Shown: positions 9,801 through 31,671 of the stretch, piece by piece
Position numbering within the stretch: position 1 is the first letter of the stretch
Layout of the letters: every line of letters begins with the position of its first letter
DNA from: Candidatus Scalindua japonica
GTDB lineage: Bacteria > Planctomycetota > Brocadiia > Brocadiales > Scalinduaceae
Reading direction: 5' to 3'
Assembly: GCF_002443295.1 (NCBI RefSeq)
Contig: NZ_BAOS01000044.1
Coordinates: 1 to 34,774, forward strand
Length of the DNA: 34,774 nucleotides
Made by a program: the position numbers and the translations under genes
The notes under the pieces: model-generated
The model's input: the letters and a program-made list of their open reading frames with translations, nothing else
Databases searched by the model: none
Told to the model about the DNA's origin: nothing

Positions 9801-9961
9801 TTTCAACCGGTGTTGGAGCCGAAGTTCAACGACCACTTGCTACAGTGGTAATTGGTGGTGTAACTACTTGCACTTTGCTGACATTGTTCGTACTTCCAGC
9901 ATTGTATATTACCATTGGAAAGTATTTAAGGAAGGGGATTAAGATACATAACTCTGCATAA
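6851..9961 (+). CDS. czcA: Heavy-metal RND efflux pump, CzcA type
   Basis: This 1,036-residue inner-membrane proton/metal antiporter is of the heavy-metal (HME) RND class and has full family length. It shows the expected layout: N-terminal helix, large periplasmic loop, TM2-6, second loop, TM8-12. In TM4 the sequence GAIDFGIIVDGSVVMTE places Asp394, Asp400 and Glu407 at the spacing of the proton-relay residues of CzcA (D402, D408, E415). This DFG-x3-DG-x4-TE pattern fits Co/Zn/Cd-type pumps rather than the copper/silver CusA type. The motif is followed by Ile rather than the usual Asn. The second half carries SGIRSDVGIKIYG, a conserved HME segment. ATG 6851 is preferred over GTG 6845. The last 17 codons are duplicated at 11587-11640 as part of a large direct repeat. 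No outer-membrane channel gene is adjacent. Confidence 0.93.
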   Translation: MNRIIEFSLKNRMLILILFAVFIGISVRAVMHTPIDAFPDTTPVQVQINTVASNLNPSEIEQQITLPIELTISGFSGLINVRSISKFGLSQVVATFDDNTDIYDARQFIIERLISVDLPEGIDRPQLGPISTGLGEVFHYLLKSSNPDRTLDELRTLHDWVIKPELRKVPGVAEVNSWGGFERQYQVIVSPDSLVKYNLTLSNVFETLVQNNNNVGGGRVVSAGQSLLVHGVGRVTTIEQIGNIVVKAYKGAPVYINDVADVIIGHEIRRGAVTAQGKGEVVLGLGFALMGENSKKVTEGLKKSLEDVRKSLPEDVKVEIVYDRTDLIFKVISTVKYNLVYGAILVVFVLFLILGNFRVGLLVAIAIPISMLFAMFGMYEFSIAASLLSMGAIDFGIIVDGSVVMTEINMRTLNEKQRHLGRPLTNMERIQSISESGKEVIRPIVFGMGIIIIVFLPILTLEGIEGKMFRPMAWTFIFAMMGALGIAIFLSPILSYYFLPRKPREKESFIERILKRGYIAALTKILGWKYVLFCTVFFLLIGAAFIGTRLGGEFIPKLKEGSIVINTIRLAGVSIEEAAAYNTRIEKLLLELFPDEIKDVWSRIGTAEVATDPMGIELTDIFISLNPRDQWKRAGTQAELINQMEKELEDLPGVNMIFTQPIEMRMNEMVSGIRSDVGIKIYGDNFEELVWLSNRVQEILQSVKGVSDIAGEQITGQPTLQVLVNQDQIARHGIAASNVLNLIKTVGVHQIGDIFEGQRRFPLVVRLPEKQRTDVNALANTLIPTESGQILPLRNLAEIRETEDYSTINREWGRRLIKVQCNVRDRDIASFVQDAQARIEDELDLPEGYVIEWGGQFEHLERSRIRFMIVVPIALLLIFLMLFFSLKNLVDVFIIYTGIPFAFIGGVFALWGRDLPFSVSAAVGFIALSGIAVLNGQILVSTIRMLRKEGLVLDEAVKVAARQRLLPVMATAITDAAGFIPMAISTGVGAEVQRPLATVVIGGVTTCTLLTLFVLPALYITIGKYLRKGIKIHNSA

Positions 9962-10990
9962 AATTCAATGATAATATTAGTTACAGGAGTCTGGAGTTAG
10001 TACCCAAGGTTGCTCCTGAAAGAAACTGATCCCTTGTGATGTTTGTGTAGCCTGTCGATGAGTGTTGGTATATCACAGATTTCAATAGTTGGTGTGGTGG
10101 CCAGAATAACTGCCTGAATAACCATATTTTTCAATTCACACCTGTTTCCAGGCCAGGCATATTACAGAAATTTCTCTATCACTTCAGAGGAAAACCCTAC
10201 TAATTCTTTGGAGAATTCTGTACTCGCTTTTTCCAGAAAATATTGACTCAGTAGGAGCAGATCGTCAATCCGATCTCTCAGAGGAGGGAGTATAATACGG
10301 AATTGGTTCAGACGATAGTAGAGATCTTCTCGAAACGTACGATTGTGTACATTGTCTTCCAGTGATATGTTAGTAGTGGCGATTATTCTAATATCAGCGT
10401 GTTTACACTTTGATGACCCGACGCGTCTGAATTCGCCTTGCTGCAGGACTCGGAGTAGTTTTCCTGTAATTGTGGCGTTGTCTCAACTATTTCATCAAGA
10501 AATAATGTACCCCCTTCTGTTTCTTCTACCAATCCATGTTTTCTGTAGATGCCTCAGTGACGGCCACTCGTTCATGGCAAAAAAGTTCGCTCTCAAGGAG
10601 TGTCTCTTTGAGAACGCCACAGTTTATAGGGACAAAAGGGAAGCTGGTCCTGCTGCACAGTTGGTGAATCGATCTTGCAATGAACTCCTTCCCGGTCCCA
10701 CTCTCTCCGGTAATAAGGACTGATGATTTTGTCTTTGATACCAACCGAACGAGTTTAAGGACTTCATTGATTTTATCAGAATCTCCAATAATTTCCGGAA
10801 AATCAGTTCGTTGCTTTGTGCGTTTTGGAATGTAACCTCCATCCTGGTCCTGGATCACAGACCTCATACTTTTGAGGAGATGTTCCGTCTCAGTTTTGAT
10901 TTGCTCCAACGGTTTTTTTTGACAGTTCTCTGAGCTTCTTTTGTTCTCTCCTGATACGCTCAACTTTTGCGTCCAGTTCCTGAAGATTAC
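9908..10990. repeat. Large direct repeat, copy 1
   Basis: This 1,083-bp segment recurs at 11587-12669 in the same orientation with an offset of 1,679 bp. I saw no difference over the parts I compared, and long encoded frames are identical. It begins inside the last codons of the pump gene and ends inside the response-regulator pseudogene. It is a segmental duplication or an assembly duplication, not a known insertion sequence: no terminal inverted repeats or transposase were found. Confidence 0.92.
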
Positions 10991-11586: not shown

Positions 11587-12669
11587 ATTACCATTGGAAA
11601 GTATTTAAGGAAGGGGATTAAGATACATAACTCTGCATAAAATTCAATGATAATATTAGTTACAGGAGTCTGGAGTTAGTACCCAAGGTTGCTCCTGAAA
11701 GAAACTGATCCCTTGTGATGTTTGTGTAGCCTGTCGATGAGTGTTGGTATATCACAGATTTCAATAGTTGGTGTGGTGGCCAGAATAACTGCCTGAATAA
11801 CCATATTTTTCAATTCACACCTGTTTCCAGGCCAGGCATATTACAGAAATTTCTCTATCACTTCAGAGGAAAACCCTACTAATTCTTTGGAGAATTCTGT
11901 ACTCGCTTTTTCCAGAAAATATTGACTCAGTAGGAGCAGATCGTCAATCCGATCTCTCAGAGGAGGGAGTATAATACGGAATTGGTTCAGACGATAGTAG
12001 AGATCTTCTCGAAACGTACGATTGTGTACATTGTCTTCCAGTGATATGTTAGTAGTGGCGATTATTCTAATATCAGCGTGTTTACACTTTGATGACCCGA
12101 CGCGTCTGAATTCGCCTTGCTGCAGGACTCGGAGTAGTTTTCCTGTAATTGTGGCGTTGTCTCAACTATTTCATCAAGAAATAATGTACCCCCTTCTGTT
12201 TCTTCTACCAATCCATGTTTTCTGTAGATGCCTCAGTGACGGCCACTCGTTCATGGCAAAAAAGTTCGCTCTCAAGGAGTGTCTCTTTGAGAACGCCACA
12301 GTTTATAGGGACAAAAGGGAAGCTGGTCCTGCTGCACAGTTGGTGAATCGATCTTGCAATGAACTCCTTCCCGGTCCCACTCTCTCCGGTAATAAGGACT
12401 GATGATTTTGTCTTTGATACCAACCGAACGAGTTTAAGGACTTCATTGATTTTATCAGAATCTCCAATAATTTCCGGAAAATCAGTTCGTTGCTTTGTGC
12501 GTTTTGGAATGTAACCTCCATCCTGGTCCTGGATCACAGACCTCATACTTTTGAGGAGATGTTCCGTCTCAGTTTTGATTTGCTCCAACGGTTTTTTTTG
12601 ACAGTTCTCTGAGCTTCTTTTGTTCTCTCCTGATACGCTCAACTTTTGCGTCCAGTTCCTGAAGATTAC
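11587..12669. repeat. Large direct repeat, copy 2
   Basis: This is the second copy of the 1,083-bp unit. Its first 54 bp (11587-11640) are the orphaned 3' end of the metal pump gene (last 17 codons and stop), without the rest of that gene. The right boundary lies at GAAGATTAC, after which the two flanks differ. Confidence 0.92.
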
Positions 12670-26679: not shown

Positions 26680-28134
26680 ATGGAGCATAATATTTATAAT
26701 AGCGGGATTCAACCCGAGGTATTTAAGGAGTTGTGTGATACAATTGGCAGGGAGAATATCGTTGGTAGTATCAAGGGGGGTGAATGTTACTTTTTTGATA
26801 CGACAAAGGAAAATTCAACACACGGCCTGGTAGCGAGACCTCATTCGACAAAGCAAGTATCAAATATCGTTTCAATAGCAGAGAAATATAACATTCCGGT
26901 TTTTATACGGGGGGGTGGGGCAGGAATGTCAAAACGATCTGTTTACATTGAAGACGGAATATCGTTGGATCTGAAAAACATGAATTGCATAGAGGATCTT
27001 AATGCAAGAGATCTTACAGTGACCGTGGAGCCGGGTGTTGTTGCAAAAGATTTGCAGAATGAGGCTGCAAAATTTAGCCTTTTTTATCCTTATTGGTCAG
27101 GCAGTAATGTATTCTCTACTATTGGTGAAAGTGTGGCAGAGTGTACAGGAGGTATGGCAGGTATGAAACATGGAGTAACAAGAGACTATGTTCTTGCACT
27201 GGAGATTGTTCTCCCTGATGGTTCTATCATAAACACTGGTCGCAAAACACTCAAGAGTGTTGCAGGGTATGATTTAACCAGGTTTTTTGTCGGTTCTGAA
27301 GGGACTCTTGGCGTTTTGACAAAAATAACATTAAAACTATTACCAATGCCGGAAAAGAGATGCACAATTATGTCATATTTTAAAGATATCGATAGCGCAC
27401 TGAATGTGACAGATTCTATCTTAATAAAAAATCACCTACATCCCTGTTCATTAGGGTTTGCTGATAAAGCGGCTATTGCTGCTGCCAGAGATTCTATAGA
27501 AGGAATATCGGAAGAAGCTGAAGCAATGTTGTTTATTGATATAGATGGAAATGAGAAAAATGTAGTTAATGATGTTTCCGTGATAGATTCTATTTGCAGG
27601 GAGAACAGTACATTAAAGACTTCTGTAACGAATACAGATGAAGAACGAAATACTTTATGGAATATCAGCAATTCTGTCTCACCGTTTCTCTTTAATGCTG
27701 TGTCCTGTGGTTTTGAAGAAGATTTCACTGTTCCAGGAAGTAGGGTTAGAGAGGTACTGAAAAAGGTGTATGAACTCAGCAGGGTACATTCATTACAAGT
27801 AGCGTTATTTGGAAATATTGGAGAGGGTCATATCCATCTCAGTTTATATGGTAACGGGGAAGAAGGAGATGCGTCTGCTAATAATCTTTTGTCTGAAATA
27901 TTGAAAGGAGTAGTGCGCATTGGAGGAAACATCGTAACAGAACTTGCCCCCCATGAGATTGAAATAATGAAAGACATGAAGAATATGTTTGACCCGAAAG
28001 GAATTATGAATCCGGGAAAATTGTTGATTAGAGATGGTTTCCTTTCGAAAAAAAGGAATATATCCTTGTTTTCAAAAGACTTCCGAAACTGGAACCCTCA
28101 CAAAAGTGAGGAGATTACAAATATACAAAAATAA
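26680..28134 (+). CDS. GlcD-like FAD-fold protein lacking the family's key motifs
   Basis: This 484-residue protein is a clear paralogue of the next gene (FAD-binding PCMH domain about 50-225, FAD-oxidase C-terminal domain about 230-460). Three conserved sites are changed. The FAD pyrophosphate loop GAGSGLTGGA reads GGGAGMSKRSV. FGHIGDGNIH, with metal or substrate histidines, reads FGNIGEGHIH. The GEHGIG-x-KK segment is deleted: GGNIVTE runs straight into LAPHEIEIMK, 14 residues short. Catalysis is doubtful; a structural role like that of GlcE beside GlcD is inferred. The C-terminal tail after the IMNPGKLLIR end has about 35 extra residues, partly coded by a palindromic repeat. The next gene starts 13 bp later, so they form an operon. 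No ribosome binding site is evident at 26680. Confidence 0.85.
   Translation: MEHNIYNSGIQPEVFKELCDTIGRENIVGSIKGGECYFFDTTKENSTHGLVARPHSTKQVSNIVSIAEKYNIPVFIRGGGAGMSKRSVYIEDGISLDLKNMNCIEDLNARDLTVTVEPGVVAKDLQNEAAKFSLFYPYWSGSNVFSTIGESVAECTGGMAGMKHGVTRDYVLALEIVLPDGSIINTGRKTLKSVAGYDLTRFFVGSEGTLGVLTKITLKLLPMPEKRCTIMSYFKDIDSALNVTDSILIKNHLHPCSLGFADKAAIAAARDSIEGISEEAEAMLFIDIDGNEKNVVNDVSVIDSICRENSTLKTSVTNTDEERNTLWNISNSVSPFLFNAVSCGFEEDFTVPGSRVREVLKKVYELSRVHSLQVALFGNIGEGHIHLSLYGNGEEGDASANNLLSEILKGVVRIGGNIVTELAPHEIEIMKDMKNMFDPKGIMNPGKLLIRDGFLSKKRNISLFSKDFRNWNPHKSEEITNIQK
28089..28112. repeat. CCTCAC...GTGAGG hairpin inside the end of a coding region
   Basis: AACTGGA-ac-CCTCAC-aaaa-GTGAGGA recurs from upstream of 13163 (AACTGGA-gt-CCTCAC-gata-GTGAGGA). 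Here it lies in frame within the last codons of the GlcD-like paralogue, encoding NWNPHKSEE, so the repeat has become protein-coding. Confidence 0.7.
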
Positions 28135-28147
28135 AACAGGTAAATTA

Positions 28148-29557
28148 ATGAAACTTTTTAAAAAAACTGAAAAAGAGATCAATAAATATCAGAAAGCGTT
28201 TGATGAACTGCTTATGGTTCTGGGTAAAGAAAGGGTGCTTTCGGCTATTGAGGACCGGATTTGTTACTCTTTTGATGCTACAAAGCAGAAGGCACTACCT
28301 GATATAGTAGTAAGGCCCGGAAGCACAACTGATGTTTCAAATACACTAAGAATTGCAAATAAATATGAAGTCCCAATATATGCCAGAGGCGCCGGTTCCG
28401 GCCTTACCGGTGGGGCAGTGCCACTTATGGGTGGAATTGTTTTTGATCTGAAAAATATGGACAAAATAATTGAAATCCGTCCTGATGATTTTACCGCAAC
28501 GGTTGAACCAGGTGTAGTTACAAAGCAGTTACAGGATGAAGTTGCGAAGTTCGACCTGTTTTATCCACCAGATCCTTCAAGCGCCGCATTTTCAACTATT
28601 GGAGGCAATGTCGCGGAATGTGCAGGGGGGATAACCGGGTTGAAATATGGAGTTACGCGTGATTATATACTTGCTCTGGAGATAGTTCTTCCTGATGGAT
28701 CTGTAATTAAAACTGGGGGGAGAAAGCTAAGGGGTGTTGTCGGATATGATTTGACGAGGCTTTTCACAGGTTCAGAGGGTACGTTGGGAATCTTTACTAA
28801 AATAACGGTAAAACTTATTCCAAAACCGGAGAAGATTCGAACACTTGCTGCTTATTTCCGTGATAGAGATGATGCCATTGATGCTGCTGATCAGATTATA
28901 GATAATAATATACTTCCGCGTACGTTGGAATTTCTGGACTATATGACCATAAACGCGGTACGGAGTTATAGTGGAACAGATATTGATGAAGATGTAAAAG
29001 CGCTACTGTTAGTAGATATTGATGGTACTGATGAGAGTATCAGCTATGAGATGCCAATTATTGAGAATGCGTGTAAGGGAAGCGGGGCATTTAAAACTAA
29101 AATTTCTGAAACAGGAAAGGAGAGAGATGCTATCTGGGCTGACAGACGTTCAATTTCTCCCGCATTATACAACATTGCTCCTCATAAAATAAATGAAGAT
29201 ATATGTGTTCCCAGAAGCAAGATAAAGGAGGCATTGCAGAGGATTGACCGGATTAATGACCAACAGACAATCTATATCGCAAATTTTGGACACATAGGAG
29301 ACGGTAATATACACGTAAATATAATGTATAATAATGACCCTGGCCAGGAGGAGCTTGCAGAGAGGATTGTAAACAGAGTTATGAAGGAAGTTGTTGCGTT
29401 GGGGGGTTCTATCTCAGGTGAACACGGTATAGGAAATAAGAAATCTCAATTCATGGAGTTTGAGATTCCTCCACGGGAATATGATATTATGAAGAGATTT
29501 AAAAATTATTTTGATCCTAAAGGGATTATGAATCCCGGTAAGATGTTTATTAGATAA
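28148..29557 (+). CDS. glcD: FAD-linked oxidase, GlcD type (glycolate/lactate dehydrogenase subunit)
   Basis: This 469-residue flavoprotein is expected to oxidise a 2-hydroxyacid such as glycolate or D-lactate. The PCMH-type FAD domain contains VVRPGSTTDVS and RGAGSGLTGGAVP (about 80-95), then FSTIGGNVAECAGG, GVTRDYILALEIVLPDG and GSEGTLGIFTKITVKL. The C-terminal domain has FGHIGDGNIHVN, with the conserved histidines, and SGEHGIGNKK near residue 430. The end DPKGIMNPGKMF is the family signature. ATG 28148 is chosen because it follows AGG at 28138-28140 and gives the family's usual N-terminus; a frame open from 28034 overlaps the previous gene. An Fe-S partner follows, so electrons would pass to the membrane quinone pool. 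The substrate is not determinable. Confidence 0.92.
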   Translation: MKLFKKTEKEINKYQKAFDELLMVLGKERVLSAIEDRICYSFDATKQKALPDIVVRPGSTTDVSNTLRIANKYEVPIYARGAGSGLTGGAVPLMGGIVFDLKNMDKIIEIRPDDFTATVEPGVVTKQLQDEVAKFDLFYPPDPSSAAFSTIGGNVAECAGGITGLKYGVTRDYILALEIVLPDGSVIKTGGRKLRGVVGYDLTRLFTGSEGTLGIFTKITVKLIPKPEKIRTLAAYFRDRDDAIDAADQIIDNNILPRTLEFLDYMTINAVRSYSGTDIDEDVKALLLVDIDGTDESISYEMPIIENACKGSGAFKTKISETGKERDAIWADRRSISPALYNIAPHKINEDICVPRSKIKEALQRIDRINDQQTIYIANFGHIGDGNIHVNIMYNNDPGQEELAERIVNRVMKEVVALGGSISGEHGIGNKKSQFMEFEIPPREYDIMKRFKNYFDPKGIMNPGKMFIR

Positions 29558-29594: not shown

Positions 29595-29659
29595 AAGTTT
29601 GAAGTGAGGCAAAGTTGGGAAAAAAACTTTTGTTTTTTTACTTTAGACACTTCAAACTT
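29595..29659. repeat. Hairpin repeat (AAGTTTGAAGTG type)
   Basis: AAGTTTGAAGTG (29595-29606) is perfectly complementary to CACTTCAAACTT (29648-29659). The loop contains A and T runs and an inner AAAGT/ACTTT pairing. It shares GTTTGAAGTGAG and the CTAAAGT segment with the element at 18256-18360. It fills the gap between the FAD and Fe-S subunit genes and ends 12 bp before the next start codon. Confidence 0.7.
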
Positions 29660-29671
29660 AGTTGAACAACA

Positions 29672-30916
29672 ATGACTACTGATTGGAAAACAGAAGTAAA
29701 TAAATGTTCGAAATGTGGTAAATGTCAAACCGTCTGTCCTGTTTTTCTGGAAACCGGTGACGAGTCGACAGTTGCGCGTGGACGAATCAGCCTGGCGGAA
29801 GCGTTGCGGGATAAACAGATAGTGTACACTGATAAACTGCGTGATTATGTATATACGTGTAAAAAGTGTATGAGGTGCAGGACAGTTTGTCCATCAGATG
29901 TGGATTATGAGGTAATTATTTCTGCCCTGCTTCGTGGAGTGGCTGATGAGATGGGCATCCCACTATTACCGAAGATAGTCTTTCGGTATATATTGCCAAG
30001 AAGGATACTATTTGATCTCATGCTCAAAATAGGCTCTAAAATCCAGAGGTTCATACCTGGGAAAAGAAGGGGGCAGATGCGCCACCTTCCACTCATGTTT
30101 ATGGGTAAAAGGTGGATACCTGTTTTAGCGAAAAAGACAGCATTGAAAAAACTACGTACAACAAGGAAATTGAAAAATCCAAAAATGCGGGTAGGGCTGT
30201 TTACCGGATGTTTGATTAATTACATTTATGTGGATATAGCGGAATCCGTGGTAGACGTTCTTAACCGGATGAATATAGAGGTCGTTATACCACAAGGCCA
30301 ATTGTGCTGTGGAACACCATCATCTACCATGGGAGATCATAAATCCACGAAAAAACTTGCAGAGGTAAATAAAGAAGTATTTGAATCTCAAAACCTCGAT
30401 GCGATAGTAAGTGCCTGTGCAACGTGTACCAAGAGTATTAAACTCGATTATCTGCGCACCCTTGGCCCATCATGGCAACAGATGTCTGATAGAATTTATG
30501 ATATTTCAGAGTTTATTGAGAAGTACTGTGGCGATGATTATAAAACAAAGCCGGTTGATGAAAAAGTGACCTATCATGATCCATGTCACCTTATGTGGGT
30601 ACGCGGTATCACTGATGAACCGAGAAATGTTTTAAAGAAATCTGCTGATTTTGTTGATATGGATATGGCAGGATCATGCTGTGGTGGTGGAGGAATTTTT
30701 ACCATAATACATTACGACCTTACCTTAAAGATGCTCGAAAGAAAAGTGAACTCTATAGAGAGGAGCGGGGCGGACACAGTTGCGACTAACTGCCCGGGTT
30801 GTATCATGCAGATAGCCGATGGATTTGCGGGTAAAGATTCTAAAATTAAGACTACCCACTCAATTCAAATACTTCAAAAGGCATTGGTAAACGGCAACAT
30901 TGATAAGAGCGTATAG
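29672..30916 (+). CDS. glcF: Fe-S subunit, GlcF/HdrD type
   Basis: This 414-residue electron-transfer subunit begins with two [4Fe-4S] motifs: C12-x2-C15-x2-C18-x3-CP and C63-x2-C66-x2-C69-x3-CP. A C-terminal half with two CCG domains follows. The first has LFTGCL, LCCGTPSS and CATC; the second has YHDPCHL, CCGGGGIF and NCPGC. This is the layout of GlcF, LldE-related and HdrD-type proteins, which take electrons from a flavin subunit and pass them to quinone or another carrier. With the two FAD-fold genes upstream it forms a GlcD-GlcE-GlcF-like trio. No ribosome binding site is clear before 29672, and a repeat hairpin lies directly upstream. Confidence 0.9.
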   Translation: MTTDWKTEVNKCSKCGKCQTVCPVFLETGDESTVARGRISLAEALRDKQIVYTDKLRDYVYTCKKCMRCRTVCPSDVDYEVIISALLRGVADEMGIPLLPKIVFRYILPRRILFDLMLKIGSKIQRFIPGKRRGQMRHLPLMFMGKRWIPVLAKKTALKKLRTTRKLKNPKMRVGLFTGCLINYIYVDIAESVVDVLNRMNIEVVIPQGQLCCGTPSSTMGDHKSTKKLAEVNKEVFESQNLDAIVSACATCTKSIKLDYLRTLGPSWQQMSDRIYDISEFIEKYCGDDYKTKPVDEKVTYHDPCHLMWVRGITDEPRNVLKKSADFVDMDMAGSCCGGGGIFTIIHYDLTLKMLERKVNSIERSGADTVATNCPGCIMQIADGFAGKDSKIKTTHSIQILQKALVNGNIDKSV

Positions 30917-31387
30917 TGTTGCGGCAAAACAGTGCAGGTCAATTCCATTTGTATATTTAAGTATTTTAATCCGTAATTTCACAGGCATTTTCTTGTTGAA
31001 CTGACAAACTGTTTATAATATTATGCGGCTGACACAATGCAATAATGCATATTTTTTAGTACGCAAATAGCTGAATAGGCGAAGCCAAAAGAAGAAGAAG
31101 ATGAATTGGAGCAAGTTTAATAATAACCTGAGATGCTATGCTCTTCCGAAACCGAGTATCAAACATAATCTGTACACGCTGTCACATGTAAAGTGAGTTA
31201 AGTTGAAGAGCCGAATGTCGGAAATCGACAAGTTCGATTCTGTGAGGGGCGTTGGAATTTCTCATACATAGTTTTAATATTGTGACACTATGCAATCGAA
31301 AGAGTAGAGAAACAGGGAAAACAAAATAGACCTAATTGGAGGAGTCATACTATGCCTGCTCGACAAAATATCTGGTGGCAATTCAAT
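30917..31387. other. Intergenic region containing a group II intron relic
   Basis: There is no intact gene. The right part has a domain V-like hairpin (listed separately). Further left, 31080-31200 may be remaining intron sequence, but I cannot fold it into known domains. A good TATAAT box lies at 31014-31019, without a convincing -35. Confidence 0.4.
31208..31268 (+). mobile_element. Degenerate group II intron domains V and VI
   Basis: GAGCCGAATGTCG-GAAA-TCGACAAGTTCGATTC (31208-31240) has the form of group II intron domain V: a GAGCCG 5' strand, a GAAA tetraloop and a GUUC-type 3' strand. The following GTGAGGGGCGTT...TCTCATAC could be domain VI. One base differs from the canonical pairing, in that the C of the AGC triad faces A instead of G, which should disable splicing. 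No reverse transcriptase gene is present. It is a truncated relic. Confidence 0.5.
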
Positions 31388-31596
31388 TGGGGGCACACTA
31401 CTCTGAACTTGATTTGTCTGATAAAGATATTGAAGGGGGAAGGCTTAATGATGTTACACTTGGTCTCAACTGGCACCTCAATCCTAATACAAGGGTGATG
31501 TTGAATTATGTGCATGCAGGCGTTGATTTAAGTGATATCAACGTTAAGGATGGAAATGCCGACATTTTTGCAATGCGTTTCCAGGTAGATCTATAG
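31388..31596 (+). pseudogene. Phosphate-selective porin (OprO/P type) C-terminal fragment
   Basis: The last about 70 residues of an outer-membrane porin remain. They include an AHYSELDLSDKDIEGG segment, LTLGLNWHLNP-type strands (VTLGLNWHLNPNTRVMLNYVHA) and a terminal beta strand IFAMRFQVDL ending in a hydrophobic residue. These match the final three strands of OprO/OprP-type 16-strand porins (about 400-500 residues). Everything upstream is missing and is replaced by intron-like sequence. A frame opening at about 31336 fuses unrelated residues in front. It cannot form a barrel. It lies just before a PhnD-like binding protein gene, which hints at a former phosphate or phosphonate locus. Confidence 0.75.
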
Positions 31597-31671
31597 AATT
31601 TGGTTAATTAAGGGATTAAAGAATTGGGAAATTTCACAATCTTTCAGAAGCATCCGGTCAGGTTTTTGCGT

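Follow-up and report, generated by a model that had tools for sequence, protein, structure and literature searches.

The 34,774-nucleotide contig NZ_BAOS01000044.1 of Candidatus Scalindua japonica, an anammox bacterium of the family Scalinduaceae with a genome of 4.8 Mb, is referred to here as the window, and it carries three adjoining genes on the same strand that we designate D', D, and F in that order. D' (26680..28134, +) encodes a GlcD-like paralogue (P0001, 484 residues). D (28148..29557, +) encodes a catalytic-type D-2-hydroxyacid dehydrogenase subunit (469 residues including the initial Met, which is omitted from P0002), and F (29672..30916, +) encodes an Fe-S protein resembling GlcF, GlpC, and LdhH, having a 4Fe-4S dicluster domain and CCG domains (P0003, 414 residues). 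Purifying selection still maintains D' and acts most strongly on a 67-codon segment of its flavin adenine dinucleotide (FAD) domain, and we assign a probability of roughly 0.6 to the reading that D' has been retained as a subunit with the flavoprotein fold but no catalysis, working with D and F as GlcE does with GlcD and GlcF.

Both D' and D were found at the positions given in an initial annotation made from the sequence alone. The likely start of D is the ATG at 28148; the alternative at 28034 falls within D'. Both products contain the FAD_binding_4 and FAD-oxidase_C domains, as in the 2-hydroxyacid dehydrogenase subfamily of the vanillyl-alcohol oxidase/p-cresol methylhydroxylase (VAO/PCMH) flavoproteins, and D' therefore does keep, as had been proposed, the C-terminal domain that GlcE lacks. 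In human D-2-hydroxyglutarate dehydrogenase (D-2-HGDH), according to excerpts of PMC7801405, single mutation of R386, H434, H441, E475, or H476 abolishes activity; H434, H441, and E475 are metal ligands, H476 is the base, and all five residues (hereafter R/H/H/E/H) are conserved in D-lactate dehydrogenase (D-LDH) and GlcD. Alignment to D-2-HGDH indicated that D of the window has all five, whereas D' retains only the equivalent of H441. The sequence changes described in the initial annotation were each seen again: the FAD loop motif GAGSGLTGGA is lost from D', which reads RGGGAGMSKRSV (26908..26943, +) where D reads RGAGSGLTGGAV and where eight non-degenerate D' copies read RGAGTGLSGG[SA]V; the motif FGHIGDGNIH of D, within FGHIGDGNIHVN (29285..29320, +), is FGNIGEGHIH in D' (27808..27837, +), replacing the first metal-ligand His with Asn; and 14 residues spanning GEHGIG (29417..29434, + in D, with the equivalents of E475 and H476) are absent from D' between the codons at 27937..27942 (+). 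The positions of H434, H441, E475, and H476 in D' are thus N, H, absent, and absent. A further change had escaped that annotation, namely the absence of the catalytic Arg, for which D' has a Ser (27667..27669, +) in the sequence WNIS where D has WADR.

The same comparison was extended to the 14 copies of D' found in Scalinduaceae genomes, in which the frame is open at full length throughout and the other 13 are 55-68% identical to that of the window (genome G000). All five catalytic residues are present in six of the 14 (G248, G250, G253, G258, G260, and G261), while one is lost in G259, two in G247, three in G246 and G257, four in G000, G252, and G254, and all five in G251. On this alignment the decay of D' is graded within the family, and it looks to have taken place within Scalinduaceae, with a D' that looks catalytic in the six relatives. 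D' of G251 and G257 also has a deletion that matches, in length and position, that of the 14 residues missing in the window, and the E-H pair was lost through substitution in G252, G254, and G246. A single origin of the deletion in G000, G251, and G257 was not rejected by the approximately unbiased (AU) test (p-AU 0.111), the best tree splitting the three. Assembly error was considered as a cause of the changes in D' and is unlikely, as the losses are shared with other genomes. In D, all five residues are present in each of the 12 copies that span the five positions (the G261 sequence stops short of E475, and G250 has only a fragment).

The loss of catalytic residues, the FAD loop, and 14 further residues might suggest a decaying pseudogene that is still open by chance. 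We estimated the ratio of nonsynonymous to synonymous substitution rates (omega) with a purpose-written codon model, whose likelihood (-5580.51 against -5580.79) was close to that of IQ-TREE. The degenerate clade was defined as the five species in which D' has decayed strongly (G000, G251, G252, G254, and G257), and was compared with five species having a D' with four or five of the five residues, termed non-degenerate but including G259, whose D' is without the Arg. D of G250 and G261 was excluded from the codon work; from the five-species subsets, so were D' of those two genomes and the D' and D genes of G246 and G247. D' of all four genomes was kept in the D' branch models, and G246 and G247 in those for D. 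In the degenerate clade omega was 0.236 for D' and 0.084 for D, a roughly threefold difference between the two genes within these species, as a pseudogene reading would have it, while in the non-degenerate five the values were 0.123 and 0.117. Fixing omega at 1 for D' in the degenerate clade was, however, worse by 371.5 in twice the log-likelihood difference (2dlnL), and on the terminal branch leading to D' of the window (omega 0.225) it cost 38.6 log-likelihood units (2dlnL 77). In the tree of all 14 D' copies, a separate omega for the degenerate clade gained 12.3 log-likelihood units (0.219 versus 0.135), and branch models for D gave no such difference between the species groups. The initial annotation had named a ratio near 1 as the sign of a decaying pseudogene, and the values of 0.22-0.24 for D' are far from it. 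Given also the full-length frames at such divergence and the strongly constrained segment described below, the pseudogene reading is highly improbable, and we reject it on the basis of the omega tests and the losses shared among genomes.

Constraint on D' is unevenly placed. In the degenerate clade the segment from M162 to C228 (67 codons, MKHGVTRDY...LLPMPEKRC; 27163..27363, +), here called the core, has an omega of 0.047, compared with 0.285 for the codons that precede it and 0.263 for those that follow (2dlnL 82.8). The same split in D of the same five species gave 0.082, 0.057, and 0.092, an unevenness that was not significant (2dlnL 3.9). Sliding windows of 67 codons over D' (n=27) reached their minimum in the core (0.055, column 150), with only a shallow dip (0.187, column 255) as the next distinct minimum, and the most conserved of the sliding windows over D (n=14) was at column 120, with an omega of 0.009. 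These data also bear on whether D' might be an active enzyme that has acquired a new metal-independent reaction or a new substrate. An early remodeling of the site would fit such a change, and in the GDGNIH motif the Asp is replaced by Glu in all 14 D' copies, including those with all five catalytic residues (the Asn is replaced by His in 13 of 14, and by Tyr in G248). On the other hand, the parts of degenerate D' that contain the positions for substrate and metal binding rank among its most poorly conserved (mean identity 0.42-0.57), which is not the pattern expected of a site newly under selection, and omega is 0.30-0.36 in the sliding windows from columns 300-390, though the N-terminal windows are about as high. 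We therefore regard a neofunctionalized enzyme as improbable.

D has changed as well, and in a manner reciprocal to D'. The statement in the initial annotation that the second gene is intact holds for the five catalytic residues but not for a loop at residues 190-197 (GRKLRGVV; 28718..28741, +), which is part of GGRKLRGVVGYD in the window and of GRKTLRSVTGYD in eight other species. The corresponding loops of D in the rest of the degenerate clade read GGKTLRSDSGYD and GGKALRSTTGYD or carry five-residue deletions (GGK-----TGYD and GRK-----AGYD), and the change thus differs in kind, with substitutions in three species and a deletion in G252 and G254. D' has kept this loop, which reads GRKTLKSVAGYD (27238..27273, + in the window) in all five degenerate-clade species. 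When the motif was scored as [KR]x[VAS]x before G, it was present in D' in 14 of 14 copies and in D of the other species in 8 of 8, but in only one of five D copies of the degenerate clade; that one is D of the window, which still fits this loose motif and retains the basic residue while differing at six of eight loop positions. Changes were also counted over the 159 columns that are near-invariant in 22 reference copies. In D of the five species 12 of these columns had changed, four of them at loop residues 192-196, whereas in D' of the same species 77 had changed and none was in the loop. Eight columns had changed in D of at least two of the five species (74, 192, 193, 195, 196, 288, 319, and 420), and four of these eight lie in the loop.

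A similar division is found where GlcD and GlcE occur together. We compared 22 GlcD-GlcE pairs, 17 planctomycete and 5 proteobacterial, with 34 single GlcD-like proteins. The planctomycete pairs derive from 25 GlcE loci, of which 8 were excluded for having no separate GlcD frame, and two unannotated plasmid regions were left out; the planctomycete GlcE proteins were named by similarity and adjacency, none scoring above the model cut-off. The 24 genomes with a GlcE match include none of those holding the single GlcDs, but some of the latter lie outside that sample, so that the single status is partly assumed. The loop motif was present in all 22 GlcE proteins and all 34 single GlcD-like proteins and in none of the 22 GlcDs beside GlcE (the basic residue alone in one), while the R/H/H/E/H set was complete in 22 of 22 paired and 34 of 34 single GlcDs. 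The window's genes are therefore like the GlcDEF system of E. coli and others in having two FAD-fold subunits and an Fe-S subunit, and in that one FAD-fold subunit has R/H/H/E/H without the [KR]xVxGY loop and the other has the loop without the catalytic set.

Since catalytic-type GlcDs paired with GlcE are without the loop, it is not needed in cis for catalysis, and it may instead serve another protein, either at a partner's flavin site across a dimer or in the docking of F. Under the favored reading, D and D' would form a heteromer in which D oxidizes a D-2-hydroxyacid on its own FAD, electrons would exit via F, and each heteromer would have a single loop, supplied by D' in trans to the flavin site of D or as a docking face for F, which would make the loop of D itself dispensable. 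A more specific version, to which we attach only tentative weight and which we think less likely than its absence, is that in a symmetric GlcD homodimer each loop serves the flavin site of the other subunit, so that after one twin dies the loop of the other decays while that of the dead twin stays. Such a cross-dimer role would also give the order of events described below for G246 and G247. Were it true, GlcE would be the far end of a path in which a dead GlcD is reduced to a loop-lending part, and Scalinduaceae would stand half-way along the same path.

The distribution of the genes among relatives was then considered. D' and D adjoin in 14 of the 17 Scalinduaceae genomes, and in the remaining three (G249, G255, and G256; 79-86% complete) none of D', D, and F has a match. 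F is missing in G250, where the contig ends within D, and lies on a separate contig in G261. In the order as a whole, 55 of 62 genomes match D and 57 have F, and among the loci inspected F is beside D only in Scalinduaceae and family f88. Outside Scalinduaceae each matching genome of the order has one close D; weak second matches (28-34% identity) occur in G106, G122, and G262, and G282 has a second fragment. GlcE was not found in FAD_binding_4 searches of the 17 family genomes. Besides D' and D, these searches returned a frame of 294-320 residues in 16 of 17 genomes (in G259 a 218-residue piece at a contig end; none in G253), which is MurB above the cut-off in the window's genome, the only member scanned against models, and single extra matches in G000 (DprE1-like, 423 bits with a cut-off of 500) and G246 (no GlcE match). 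As a separate observation, the joint absence from the three genomes looks like loss as a unit.

A role for D' of its own, for example in regulation or in another complex, and unrelated to D and F, deserves mention because a complex of the three proteins is proposed from sequence, which cannot prove a complex. The gene neighborhood and the joint absence of D', D, and F argue against this, and the altered loop of D in the same clade would be unexplained by an unrelated protein; we judge such a role to be improbable, slightly more so than neofunctionalization.

Several observations weigh against D' as a GlcE-like partner of D and F. The basic residue of the loop is kept in three of the five changed D loops, that of the window included. 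D' of G246 has lost three catalytic residues and that of G247 two, yet their D loops are kept, so that catalytic loss in D' and loop loss in D are not tightly linked; by the same token, the loss in D' seems to come before that in D. The loop counts are counts of sequences, and the independent events number about two, one being the origin of GlcE and the other the Scalinduaceae clade. In non-degenerate D' the core was already the most constrained part (0.055, versus 0.106 before and 0.152 after; 2dlnL 15.2), and the loss of catalysis therefore relaxed the rest of D' and not the core, whose contrast is partly older than the decay and grew rather than arose with it. The loop and core were, moreover, chosen after their conservation in the alignment had been seen. 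The spacing between D' and D is loose in G246, G254, and G248 (299-909 bases between frames), and a structure model of D' from a four-row alignment had a mean predicted local distance difference test score (pLDDT) of 49.9, too poor to place the loop, and was not used. Some of these points would equally suit lineage drift of the D loop, with a coincidental likeness to GlcD and GlcE and with D' a partner subunit for other reasons: the change is confined to one clade, the basic residue at -4 persists in three of the five, and G246 and G247 keep the loop in D. Drift would not readily account for half of the recurrently changed D columns falling in the loop when heavily altered D' has none there, nor for the loss of the motif in every GlcE-paired GlcD. 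We consider drift unlikely, if somewhat less so than the other alternatives to a GlcE-like partner.

The initial annotation had proposed that D' arose by duplication and decay of GlcD, and as regards a local copy of the adjacent D our results differ. Trees were built without D of G250, a fragment at a contig end; one of the homologue searches contributed only the loci of its best matches, and the loci L029 and L030 were left out of the trees and of later comparisons. The 14 D' sequences formed one clade and the 13 D sequences another, and D' was sister to the single D of family f3 with support of 100/98, or 98/96 when the six slow D' rows were used. Forcing D and D' into one clade gave a p-AU of 0.033. 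This placement, together with the retention of all five residues in six relatives, argues that D' is probably not a young local copy of the adjacent D. A quick RpoB tree puts f3 at the deepest position within the order, with a value of 89 in the Shimodaira-Hasegawa-like approximate likelihood ratio test (SH-aLRT) at the fork above it. The sister grouping of D' with f3 conflicts with this tree, and transfer from an f3-like donor and an old duplication with losses are thus both possible origins of D', although long branches may mislead its placement (the D' stem is 0.46). In a tree of the FAD domain D' grouped with the GlcDs of its own order, away from GlcE, and the phylogeny accordingly places it among GlcD-like proteins and not with GlcE or a separate catalytic family. 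The suggestion of an independently derived GlcE-like subunit is in part strengthened by this work, by way of the reciprocal division of loop and catalysis, and in part revised, in that a local duplication of D is disfavored and D has itself changed. As read from these sequences, D' probably represents a GlcE-like helper subunit that arose independently a second time and stands at a half-way stage. Such a younger and graded case, in which catalytic-type and non-catalytic D' occur in relatives, narrows the essential part of the partner to one segment and one loop, and shows stepwise how an enzyme twin may turn into a structural partner.

The differences from GlcDEF are several. D' retains FAD-oxidase_C, lies upstream of D, and branches with the GlcDs of its order, and D', D, and F all fall below the NCBIfam equivalog cut-offs for Glc proteins: D scored 459 bits with TIGR00387 (cut-off 567.9), D' scored 101 with the GlcE model (cut-off 284), and F scored 134 bits with the GlcF model (cut-off 333), its best model being LdhH, again below the cut-off. 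The pocket of D is likewise not GlcD-like. Excerpts of PMC7801405 describe T390, K401, Y432, and N443 of D-2-HGDH as binding the distal carboxylate and GlcD as having hydrophobic or small residues there, a description that suits the GlcDs paired with GlcE. In the alignment these positions of D hold S, K, F, and N (the placement of 390 and 401 being alignment-dependent), and the pocket of D and of the aligned single D copies of the order is closer to that of D-2-HGDH than to that of GlcD. D may therefore oxidize a D-2-hydroxy-dicarboxylate rather than glycolate, glycolate oxidase activity as first annotated is doubtful, and genes of this order annotated as "glycolate oxidase" may be misnamed, given the resemblance of the pocket to D-2-HGDH.

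Single-subunit D-2-hydroxyacid dehydrogenases such as human D-2-HGDH, mouse LDHD, and Acetobacterium LctD, which are not known to act with a non-catalytic paralogue, share the five catalytic residues with D. Both D' and D match these enzymes by sequence, the best solved relatives being LctD (7qh2) for D' and glycolate oxidase (9qgz) for D. Comparison of E. coli GlcE and of P0003 with the PDB sequences brought up no entry labeled as a GlcDEF complex. LctD hands electrons to EtfAB, and in the Acetobacterium Ldh-EtfAB complex the Ldh subunits form a central dimer (excerpts of PMC9232219), whereas mouse LDHD is described as a monomer (excerpts of PMC10589216); in view of this difference, these excerpts do not decide the role of the loop. 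In the glcD-kch-glcE-glcF operon of Cupriavidus necator, kch is an extra GlcD-like gene in a glycolate dehydrogenase operon and was suggested to encode a further subunit (excerpts of PMC7486775), a likeness to D', although in that operon GlcE is also present. The same excerpts hold nothing on the contribution of GlcE to glycolate oxidase, by which we do not claim that its role is unpublished. Literature searches pairing Scalindua and glycolate oxidase, anammox and D-2-hydroxyglutarate dehydrogenase, or GlcE or GlcD and heterodimer-type terms gave no match, and the matches for anammox with glcD were off topic by title.

Other features of the window were recorded. The gap between D and F contains a perfect 12-base inverted repeat with arms at 29595-29606 and 29648-29659 and a 41-base spacer, and a search of the window with one arm gave only one further match, with two mismatches. 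An exact direct repeat of 1083 bases is located at 9908-10990 and 11587-12669 (1679 bases apart), and both copies carry most of one short frame, which resembles part of a sigma-54 activator. A 381-base piece of this repeat had no other full copy in the genome, and the repeat may have arisen through recent duplication or as an artifact of assembly. Just upstream of genes for a phosphonate-binding-type protein and a hybrid histidine kinase is a frame at 31380-31597 (containing NWHLNPNTRVMLNYVHAGVDL) that resembles the C-terminal end of a porin and looks like a gene remnant.

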